Assembly: GCA_021775355.1 (NCBI GenBank)
Contig: JAJFHZ010000019.1
Location: 1 to 64,000 of the forward strand
Direction: 5' to 3'
Source of the DNA: Amylibacter sp.
GTDB taxonomy: Bacteria > Pseudomonadota > Alphaproteobacteria > Rhodobacterales > Rhodobacteraceae
DNA length: 64,000 bases
In this document: positions 45,373 to 57,886 of the stretch, in pieces
Position numbering within the stretch: position 1 is the first letter of the stretch
How the letters are laid out: every line of letters starts with the position of its first letter
Made by a program: the position numbers and the translations under genes
The notes under the pieces: model-generated
Databases searched by the model: none
Told to the model about the DNA's origin: nothing
Seen by the model: the letters and a program-made list of their open reading frames with translations, nothing else

Positions 45373-45395
45373 GCTTTAACAAGCTTGCAAACGTC

Positions 45396-45418
45396 ATCCC
45401 CCGACACGTTCGGGGGAT
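45396..45418 (+). repeat. stem-loop after pnp
   Basis: ATCCCCCGA (45396-45404) pairs with TCGGGGGAT (45410-45418) with a 5-base loop and no T-run. It is probably a 3' protective hairpin ahead of the true terminator. Confidence 0.6.
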
Positions 45419-45428
45419 CGCAAAATAG

Positions 45429-45460
45429 AAAGGCCTCGCATTTGCGGGGCCTTTTTGTTT
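45429..45460 (+). terminator. intrinsic terminator after pnp
   Basis: AAAGGCC (45429-45435) pairs with GGCCTTT (45448-45454), with further CGC/GCG pairing inside, followed by TTTTTGTTT. A standard rho-independent terminator for rpsO-pnp. Confidence 0.88.
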
Positions 45461-45496
45461 ATAGTGTATAGATATACTCCGTGCGAAGGATTACAT

Positions 45497-46099
45497 ATGG
45501 CTTGGAAAACCGAACGTTGGATGGAAGAGGTTTTTCCAGGAAAAGAGAACATATACTCCGATTACCGAAGCCTACCCACCCGTGAACTAGTCGTTGTGAG
45601 TGCTGCAGTTTTGGATATCGCCTTGGCTGAATTATTATCAAAACGGTTGATACAAAATGACAAAGAGATCGAGAGGTTCCTTGGCTTAAATGGTGACGGT
45701 CGTGCCCCCGCAGCTTCATTTGGTGCAAGGATTCAACCTGGCTATCTCATAGGTATCTTATCTAAGTTAGATGCCGATATTCTTAGAACCATTAAAGCAA
45801 TGAGAAACCTATTTGCGCATACAGTTAAAGTTGATTTTCTATCACCACCGGTCTTTAAATTAAGCAAACGACTATATACGCTTTGGTTTGAATTGAATTC
45901 TAATCTCATAAAAACTGGAAAAATCACTGCTACAAAAAAACAAATGGAAGAAGTGCGAATGTATTTGGATTCCACTCCCGAAGCAGGCGAAGGATTATTG
46001 TTAGCAATTTTTGCAACCTATCAAGCTTACTTTCATCTTATGCACTCCGAGATTGCTTCAATTAAAAATTATCCCTTACTTGAGAAGAATATTAAGTAG
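45497..46099 (+). CDS. MltR-like protein with a HEPN-type RX4H motif
   Basis: A 200-residue all-helical soluble protein resembling the mannitol-repressor (MltR) family: RELVVVSAAVLDIALAELLS, then APAASFGARIQPGYLIGILS, and AMRNLFAH at residues 102-108. The RNLFAH element (R103...H108) matches the RX4-6H signature of HEPN ribonucleases, a fold to which MltR-like proteins have been compared. Whether it cuts RNA, represses or binds a partner is unknown; no mannitol genes are nearby. AAGGA precedes the ATG at 45497. Composition is distinctly more AT-rich than pnp or the usp gene, suggesting later acquisition. A GC-rich structured non-coding region follows. Confidence 0.7.
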   Translation: MAWKTERWMEEVFPGKENIYSDYRSLPTRELVVVSAAVLDIALAELLSKRLIQNDKEIERFLGLNGDGRAPAASFGARIQPGYLIGILSKLDADILRTIKAMRNLFAHTVKVDFLSPPVFKLSKRLYTLWFELNSNLIKTGKITATKKQMEEVRMYLDSTPEAGEGLLLAIFATYQAYFHLMHSEIASIKNYPLLEKNIK

Positions 46100-46122
46100 T
46101 AAGTAAAAATAGATCCCATCAT

Positions 46123-46465
46123 GGCCATCGTCCCTAGACGAGGGCCGCGCCCGACCCTCCCCACGGGAGGGCGCATATGCACCCACCCAGGGTCAGGCGC
46201 TACGTGACTTATTGAAATGCCGTAAATCCGCCCTTCCCCTACCCATCATCCTCGCCTATCTTATTTGTAGGGCTGTCATAGTCAGCCTCGGGGTGTCGTA
46301 ACCTCTCCCTAGACGGTTGGTATCAACCGTCAATGATGCCTTCTCGAACATTATGGTCGGGGAGGTTATGACGTATGTCCAAGGCTTCGGCCTAAAGGTC
46401 ATAGCAGTCGTTCTAGGGCGGCTTACGAACTCCCCGGCTGTCGGTCGTCCCGACAGCCGTTTTCA
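46123..46465 (+). ncRNA. candidate structured non-coding RNA region, unknown family
   Basis: No gene is supported here, but stable stems follow one another: 46123-46146 (GGCC-TCGTC / GACGA-GGCC, one mismatch); 46147-46158 with 46189-46200 (11 of 12 pairs) with an alternative CCCTCCC/GGGAGGG at 46155-46171; 46271-46287 (GGCTG/CAGCC); 46295-46309 with 46359-46372 (GTCGTAACCTC / GAGGTTATGAC, near perfect) enclosing 46312-46331 (GACGGTTG/CAACCGTC); 46382-46393 (AGGC-TTCG-GCCT, a UUCG tetraloop); and a terminator at 46435-46463. The block is much more GC-rich than the MltR-like gene before it. It does not match tmRNA, RNase P RNA, SRP RNA or riboswitches I know. Orientation is inferred from the terminator. 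Confidence 0.5.
46435..46465 (+). terminator. intrinsic terminator closing the structured region
   Basis: CGGCTGTCGG (46435-46444) pairs perfectly with CCGACAGCCG (46450-46459), loop TCGTC, followed by TTTT-C-ATTT. It ends the proposed non-coding transcript 28 bases before the 65-residue ORF. Confidence 0.8.
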
Positions 46466-46491
46466 TTTGAAAATTTTTAAGGGGAACAATT

Positions 46492-46689
46492 TTGAAAACC
46501 ATCCGATTGAACAATGAACAACACTGCTGGGTCTTGGGTTACCTGCACACCAGCAAAGATTACAACCCCGATGACCCGTTTATCCAACTGCTGCGCGCAC
46601 TTTTGGAACGCCCGGAAGTTACAAGCATTCAGATACGCGAAGAACATCCGATCATGCAGGTAATGATCAAAAACATGGAACCGCCATAG
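46492..46689 (+). CDS. hypothetical 65-residue protein (TTG start)
   Basis: Not recognised. The protein is soluble and acidic-to-neutral (LNNEQHCWVLGYLHTSKDYN, then PFIQLLRALLERPEV), with no signal or membrane segment. It would start at a TTG (46492-46494), with AAGGGGAA as a good ribosome site six bases upstream; no ATG lies nearby. It sits between the structured region's terminator and the universal stress gene, perhaps in one transcript with the latter (86-base gap). Confidence 0.5.
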   Translation: MKTIRLNNEQHCWVLGYLHTSKDYNPDDPFIQLLRALLERPEVTSIQIREEHPIMQVMIKNMEPP

Positions 46690-46775
46690 CTACAAAACAT
46701 TTGATCCATATCAACGACCAGCCCTACACTGGTGCCTATAGTCACTCAAACGACAACAGCCCAAAAGGTATTCAA

Positions 46776-57610: not shown

Positions 57611-57639
57611 TTGACCAATGAGGTTTCCAAGGCCATTAA
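57611..57639 (+). promoter_or_regulatory. putative promoter of the cobalt uptake operon
   Basis: TTGACC (57611-57616), a 17-base spacer and CATTAA (57634-57639). Transcription from here would start just before the cobalamin riboswitch. The -10 is weak. Confidence 0.4.
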
Positions 57640-57642
57640 CAA

Positions 57643-57842
57643 GGGGCATGGTTCCCCGCTAAGACGTCAAATGTCTGGGGATCAAATGGGAATGTGGACA
57701 GGGACGACCCAAAAGGGGCCCGAAACCACAACCGCCCCCGCGACTGTATGTGGAGAGCGCCCGTCAACCACGCCACTGGTGGAAACATTGGGAAGGCAGA
57801 CGGTGCGCAATGAACCACAAGTCAGGAAACCAGCCTTGCGTG
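57643..57842 (+). promoter_or_regulatory. cobalamin riboswitch
   Basis: All main conserved blocks of the Cbl aptamer are present in order: AAATGGGAATGTGG near 57684, CCGCCCCCGCGACTGTA near 57732, GCCACTGG near 57772, GGGAAGGC near 57790, and the B12-box-type AAGTCAGGAAACCAGCC at 57819-57835. A short hairpin CCGTC/GACGG (57856-57871) and the cbtB ribosome site follow, so B12 binding probably blocks translation of cbtB and perhaps the downstream genes. This ties cobalt uptake to cobalamin status. Confidence 0.93.
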
Positions 57843-57886
57843 ACCTTAACAAACGCCGTCGGGAGTGACGGTATAGGAGATTACTT

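Follow-up and report, generated by a model that had tools for sequence, protein, structure and literature searches.

A probable C4-like antisense RNA module, repeated in the genome of an Amylibacter species

The stretch of an Amylibacter sp. contig analysed here (the window, 64,000 nucleotides) carries, between pnp and usp, a conserved RNA of 196 nt that is followed by a small open reading frame and recurs elsewhere in the genome. We propose that this RNA is probably a C4-like antisense module, composed of a promoter, a copy of its own target (a1b1), a three-stem domain with the complementary sequences (a'b'), a terminator and the small ORF (Table 1). Comparison of aligned copies shows that the leader segment can pair with the antisense loop and strand, that the 3' domain has a second predicted fold, of the C4/sRNA-Xcc1 type, which excludes leader pairing, and that the words of the leader pairing are repeated ahead of the next gene start in most of the phage-borne members tested. 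The module would join the C4 immunity RNA of phages, sRNA-Xcc1, for which a link to virulence has been discussed, and unannotated RNAs of alphaproteobacteria and phages. RNAs resembling sRNA-Xcc1 would gain a predicted mechanism and readable targets.

Table 1. Coordinates in the window of the RNA, its predicted parts and its neighbours
Feature	Position	Strand	Remark
HEPN/MtlR-like protein, 200 aa	45497..46099	+	motif RNLFAH, residues 103-108; considered unrelated to the RNA
Element A, REP-like dispersed repeat	46115..46224		core at roughly 46142-46201; separate from the RNA
Promoter-like CTTCCC-18 nt-TATCTT	46233..46262	+	putative; pattern common to genus copies
C4-like RNA with its own leader, 196 nt	46269..46464	+	model R1 positions 1-196; presumed 5' end
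a1/b1-type target copy	46290..46313	+	predicted to pair with 46412-46435
C4-like/sRNA-Xcc1-like three-stem domain	46355..46439	+	
Stem P1	46355-46364 with 46430-46439		
Stem P3	46406-46410 with 46419-46423		
b'-type loop and a'-type strand	within 46412-46428		
Intrinsic terminator	46435..46463	+	5' arm overlaps the last bases of C4-type stem P1
65-aa ORF, TTG start	46492..46689	+	small-protein family 3' of genus copies; position of icd in P1

A conserved multi-copy RNA with two exclusive folds

The initial annotation described a GC-rich region of consecutive hairpins ending in a terminator as one compact structured RNA. Structure and terminator were both recovered: positions 46100-46470 fold at -148.3 kcal/mol (z = -5.8, equalled by none of 100 shuffles), and 46435-46463 is a terminator-like hairpin with a T run, terminator-like sites overall being no commoner than in shuffles. 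Yet the region is not a single RNA. A search of the own genome with the 371-base stretch found 13 places, nine spanning the 3' part and four only the 5' repeat. The stretch is matched in 24 of 61 genomes (its own and relatives), with the repeat alone in 18 among the matches listed. Since 46115-46224 occurs without the RNA both in the own genome and in relatives, the hairpin stretch divides into a repeat and the 196-nt RNA. The repeat, element A, is palindromic and REP-like, with a GGGAGGGCGC core, and parts of it are also found in other Rhodobacteraceae genera.

A covariance model built only from copies of the genus (R1) scores the window copy at 204.8 bits and finds 22 places (one partial) in four of the 33 genus genomes, that is, nine in the window's own genome, five each in genomes G010 and G031, and two plus the partial one in G007. 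The other 29 have none at E≤1e-3. The genus set comprises 22 genomes that are at least 90% complete and 11 that are under 90% complete or over 5% contaminated. Aligned, the 22 places share the promoter-like pattern and the conserved RNA, and the complete copies have the terminator. Some copies of G010 and G031 adjoin like neighbours (a thiolation-like ORF and usp, named by reading). At the level of the family, R1 matches 13 of 295 genomes (E≤1e-3, best eight candidates per genome scored), two of these matches resting on short stretches of 54 and 73 nt.

Covariation shows the RNA to be a conserved multi-copy structure, as predicted from its 21 full copies. RNAalifold gives 62 pairs, 27 of them with two-sided changes, and 99.0% of the cells are paired; the covariation score is 0.406, against 0.195 for shuffled and at most 0.091 for slid alignments. 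The strongest covariation lies in the main a1b1 helix (46296-46313 with 46412-46428), where 13 of 15 pairs have two-sided changes: the a1b1 word varies between copies and the partner strand changes accordingly. The alternative, C4-type fold pairs 99.3% of the cells. In it, three of the five pairs of P3 have two-sided changes, and P1 is paired in every genus copy, yet is almost invariant. Alignment columns 172, 173 and 175 are paired in both folds, and at 173 and 175 two-sided changes back both. The leader-paired form reaches -92.0 kcal/mol, versus -76.1 with C4-type P1 enforced. The GGU at 46355 is the start of the three-stem domain, and from GGUCGGGG (46355) onward the RNA folds unprompted into three stems and the terminator. 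Comparative folding thereby shows that two mutually exclusive folds are predicted and conserved. Because the C4-type stem takes four bases of the terminator's 5' arm, the two forms could switch termination.

Two further observations concern these copies. By eye, their promoter pattern (CTTYCCC, about 16-18 nt, TATCCT) is unusual and differs from the ordinary sigma-70 form found near some phage members. Two copies of G031, L012 and L038, have most of the RNA body in common, variable word included, and diverge at the two ends, a pattern suggestive of gene conversion.

Judged from the loci compared, the constant companion of the RNA is the small ORF 3' of it and not the HEPN-like gene that precedes it in the window. 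Such an ORF lies 3' of all 21 full genus copies, 19 being closed (58-73 codons, by start chosen) and two cut by contig ends. A profile of eight ORFs from G010 and G031 finds the other eleven (E 6e-15 to 0.23 in a set of 19, ten at 0.015 or below), and a profile of four ORFs of the window type finds the other fifteen (E 3e-11 to 0.15). Since both profiles recover all the others, the small ORFs of the genus look like one diverged family.

Comparison with phage C4 and sRNA-Xcc1

In the record of phage P1 the order is a1,b1 - c4 - a2,b2 - icd (73 aa) - ant, and C4 RNA keeps icd-ant repressed through base pairing at the ribosome site, as set out in the P1 annotation and in excerpts of PMC12197685 and PMC5320573. 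The class to which we assign the window RNA has the same plan as C4 of P1 and P7: a target copy in the leader, a three-stem RNA with a complementary loop and strand, and a target copy before the next gene. The three-stem fold P1-P2-P3 is found in the window RNA, with P3 covarying and P1 conserved but nearly invariant in the genus, and the upstream a1b1 is complementary to a'b'. Like C4, the window RNA has a small ORF first downstream (icd in P1) and a three-stem domain that starts with GGT/GGU, and phage members have antirepressor genes. Yet the Rfam model of C4 (RF01695), which finds P1 c4 with 68.8 bits alongside c4-a1b1 (RF03163), gives no match on 46050-46520 at E≤5 and none on 31 other loci (11 + 20) at E≤1, and the class has a core of its own, ATGTCCARGG...CCYAAAGG. 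Hence we name the RNA C4-like, not C4. On P1 c4, R1 scores only 9.8 bits, and the match is correctly placed (E 0.0033 in a search of 451 bases with filters off). The genus further differs from P1 and P7 in having a terminator after the RNA and no evident a2b2: the window copy shows no a2b2 repeat before the ORF, its b1 word is not repeated at the ribosome site, and that site, AAGGGGAAC, is a partial match only.

Automatic choice of the a1/a' word often took the P1 stem and we used a triple-word test instead, in which one word of at least 7 nt must appear in the leader (a1b1), as its complement in the antisense domain and once more in a2b2, downstream of the RNA and before the next gene. Of 42 members from phages or elsewhere outside the genus, 31 have such a word, against 6.4% when downstream parts are swapped (0 of 5000 permutations, a count that is not a strict probability because members are related and some near-identical). 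These 42 are what is left of 50 listed members after dropping five without the core motif and setting aside three (L046, L047 and L051), Rhodobacteraceae copies that we took as terminator type, doubtfully for L051; including them gives 31 of 45. At loci of sRNA-Xcc1 (RF02221), a leader word of at least 8 nt is complementary to the last 55% of the core in 25 of 30 (swapped 9.4%; 0 of 5000 permutations, to be read with the same caution), and the triple word reaches 7 nt in just seven of the 30. GGAGTT, the complement of a conserved AACTCC, occurs downstream of nine of 17 non-genus copies with GGAG versus 23 of 510 other gene starts in the loci, an uneven comparison in that 25 terminator-type copies were picked by eye and scanned over 66 nt, and only 20 nt were scanned at gene starts. 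Within the genus, GGAGTT is found in just four of the 17 copies with GGAG, as two pairs of like copies.

On viral contigs, ten downstream ORFs were picked from 17 (18 loci), nine by the look of the start and that of L157 as another kind. Nine of the ten match Rha, P22_AR_N, ORF6N or Bro-N in Pfam, over cut-off, and seven match PHROGs named Rha-like or anti-repressor; the ORF of L157 has a Mu-transposase domain match. Multiple chromosomal copies also have a precedent in the group 1 C4-like sRNAs of Acinetobacter baumannii, described as many per chromosome, with a variable target loop and coverage from GGW (PMC5320573). They resemble the window RNA in copy number and variable loop; they are gammaproteobacterial, were found by the Rfam C4 motif, and a linked small-ORF family does not appear in the excerpts of that paper.

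The matches to R1 place the RNA in a class that is widespread in alphaproteobacteria and on viral contigs. The core pattern is present in at least 120 stretches of viral contigs, some of them near-copies, with 41 of the 80 scored confirmed by R1 (E≤1e-3), and in at least 117 stretches of named genomes, with 45 of 80 confirmed at the same threshold. Confirmed hosts include Celeribacter, Aquimixticola, Microvirga, Hyphomicrobium, Paracoccus, Nitratireductor, Sphingomonas and Rickettsiales. L046 and L049, from two genera, each have a similar tRNA gene about 115 nt upstream of the RNA and on its strand, which may mark an integration site.

Over the 3' domain the best Rfam family is sRNA-Xcc1, for the window RNA and for five of 11 family loci, below threshold and in the same register. 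The window copy scores 23.5 bits, versus a gathering score of 53 bits. Having reached the threshold of neither Rfam C4 nor sRNA-Xcc1, the window RNA is filed under neither. Other Rfam rows (SgrS, mir, CRISPR-DR and similar) look like chance, and only sRNA-Xcc1 stands, below threshold. With RF02221 itself as query, matches at E≤1e-3 were found in 36 of 289 alphaproteobacterial genomes, five of them over cut-off, and in none of the 14 genomes used as controls. R1 matches 11 of 30 RF02221 loci (E≤1e-3) over its full length, starting 70-101 bases ahead of the Rfam match. Since R1 spans the full length and starts earlier, sRNA-Xcc1 as modelled in Rfam appears to cover just the 3' domain of an RNA that is longer, and the class seems to take in sRNA-Xcc1. 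Of the five loci over the sRNA-Xcc1 threshold (L067-L071) R1 matches L071 only; the strictest members appear to lie beyond a model built from the genus. The two RNAs agree in register and fold over 46356-46446 and, in many members, in the leader complement; they differ in that Rfam models just an 87-nt 3' domain, with no clan listed.

A 2011 paper in RNA Biol, by its title, reportedly links sRNA-Xcc1 to integrons. Excerpts of other papers report that sRNA-Xcc1 was seen on a Northern blot as a separate RNA, about 100 nt long (PMC2996969), place it upstream of symE in integron cassettes of Xanthomonas (PMC12444791), and count seven homologues in Xylella, with transcripts detected for all seven (PMC12189769). 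The Xylella homologues are thus multi-copy, like the RNA of the window's genome; in the excerpts of PMC12189769, sRNA-Xcc1 and C4 are separate annotations, unlinked. Among the papers searched we found none that treats sRNA-Xcc1 and C4 as one class, PMC12189769 being the only one with both terms.

A second multi-copy set is found in G418, a 1.4-Mb alphaproteobacterium of another family with 13 sRNA-Xcc1-like copies (L368-L380). A leader word of at least 8 nt is complementary to the core in ten of the 13 (swapped 7.1%), and the downstream repeat is hardly above control (mean 5.8 vs 5.25). Eight of these 13 copies are followed by ORFs of one paralogous family (phmmer), and another by an ORF that is Bro-N-like by reading.

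A proposed mechanism and its alternatives

In phage P1, C4 RNA, through which the phage protects its dormancy, is freed by RNase P. If the window RNA is a C4-like antisense module, its nascent leader would pair with the antisense domain, leaving P1 open, the terminator would form and the small ORF would stay silent. Once freed, possibly by RNase P as in P1, the 3' domain would take the C4 fold and might target matching leaders or ribosome sites in trans, be they its own, those of phages or those of sister loci, and the variable b1/b' word would give every copy its own specificity. One might speculate that repertoires such as the nine copies here and the 13 of G418, each with its own target word, provide RNA-based immunity against phages with a matching C4-type locus. 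The antirepressor or early operon of the phage would be silenced, and the attached small protein would be the payload if silencing fails. We regard this extension as a long shot. Multi-copy modules nevertheless pose the question of whether they are phage-immunity barcodes or domesticated regulators of small proteins.

Type III toxin-antitoxin systems are laid out as an RNA, a terminator and a small ORF, and the genus copies, compared by layout alone, resemble them. The small ORF might therefore encode a toxin restrained by the RNA, in the style of type I or type III systems. This is a doubtful reading, though it deserves attention. The presence of several modules in the own genome and in G418 agrees with it, as does sRNA-Xcc1 upstream of symE in Xanthomonas integron cassettes (PMC12444791). 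But the small proteins tested have no toxin-named match in Pfam, NCBIfam or PHROGs, and many phage copies precede antirepressor-type genes. Predicted alone, the fold of the 65-aa protein (pLDDT 70, pTM 0.49) is too weak for a structure search. Restraint of a toxin overlaps with the C4 mechanism, and both could be true.

One may also ask if the RNA acts in trans at all. As a purely cis-acting leader, riboswitch or attenuator, its folds would switch the terminator or access to the ribosome site on a signal. This would suit the contiguity of RNA, terminator and ORF in 21 genus copies and the conservation of two exclusive folds. It would also suit the position of the window ORF, which needs read-through or a hidden promoter since 32 nt part the terminator stem from the start codon. 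It is at odds with self-complementary a1b1/a'b' words that vary by copy, unlike a ligand pocket, with downstream genes that vary across the class, and with the detection of sRNA-Xcc1 as a separate RNA on Northern blot (PMC2996969). We find such a leader unlikely. Far less credible is a mobile, non-coding, MITE-like repeat with hairpins serving transposition: its multiple copies, patchy in the genus (4/33), and the integron link of sRNA-Xcc1 (PMC12444791) would be expected, but long-range covariation, the terminator and a conserved ORF family argue for expression of the RNA, and some copies of G010 and G031 lie beside like neighbours.

The HEPN-like gene and the pnp-usp gap

The initial annotation had paired the RNA with the HEPN-type, MltR-like protein encoded just upstream, as an RNA-targeting regulator, a toxin-antitoxin-like pair or a defence element. 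What it said of the protein holds. The ORF encodes 200 residues with the RNLFAH motif, and R103, N104, A107 and H108 do not vary among the 12 proteins of one alignment (two of 13 relatives left out, L219 having no ORF and L220 stopping before the motif) or among the 13 of a second. The window protein itself has no match in Pfam, NCBIfam or PADLOC; among the 12 aligned members ten match DUF4145 and eight MtlR (Pfam, E≤0.1), and in PHROGs it matches phrog_22031, of unknown function (E 7.6e-7). A profile of these proteins matches MtlR 6kcr (E 2.4e-8) and HepS 9oij (E 0.002). In the predicted model (pLDDT 82, pTM 0.78) RNLFAH ends the helix 90-108. VIA-align gives Z scores of 14.2 with YggD 3c8g (143 aligned, 2.6 A), 13.3 with MtlR 3brj and 11.9 with HepS 9oij (5.0 A), to be read knowing that helical bundles can reach Z of about 13 by arrangement alone, and the 6kcr profile match agrees with them; Foldseek E-values are weak, 0.008 at best. 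The protein thus has a predicted HEPN fold with an RX4-6H motif, in common with MtlR, YggD and HepS, at an identity of only 8-12%.

The difference in composition from pnp and usp was likewise confirmed, with a G+C of 39% in the HEPN ORF, 64.5% in 46115-46224 and 55.6% in 46269-46464, against 50% in pnp and 51.7% in usp. The HEPN gene was not found in the 32 other genomes of the genus, and together with its low G+C this suggests that it was acquired. Relatives reside on plasmids, phages and chromosomes; a scan of viral contigs with the single protein found none and a scan with the alignment found 12.

The partnership fared differently. The own genome has nine RNA copies versus one HEPN gene, and while four of the 33 genus genomes have the RNA, the HEPN protein is found only in that of the window. 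We also examined 25 loci around relatives of the HEPN protein (13 + 12, with flanks of up to 1.5-4 kb, including near-identical pairs such as L228/L232 and L229/L237): none has a convincing RNA, and the two matches found are marginal (14.1 bits, E 0.037; 16.4 bits, E 0.017). Because the two do not co-occur in the genomes and loci searched, we reject a HEPN-RNA toxin or defence pair. That the protein acts with or on the RNA is extremely improbable: they are adjacent on the same strand, and the HEPN fold and R/H motif are conserved, but co-occurrence was seen in neither direction in what was searched, a REP-like repeat lies between them, and in the near relative G015, where another ORF lies between pnp and usp, blastn finds neither the HEPN gene nor the repeat nor the RNA in the gap. 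The HEPN gene looks like unrelated cargo of the pnp-usp gap and a chance neighbour of the RNA.

The gap after pnp (45373-46775) varies in gene content between genus genomes in the manner of an insertion hot spot (13 genomes compared). Elsewhere in the window, a cobalamin riboswitch is found at 57632-57852 (102 bits).
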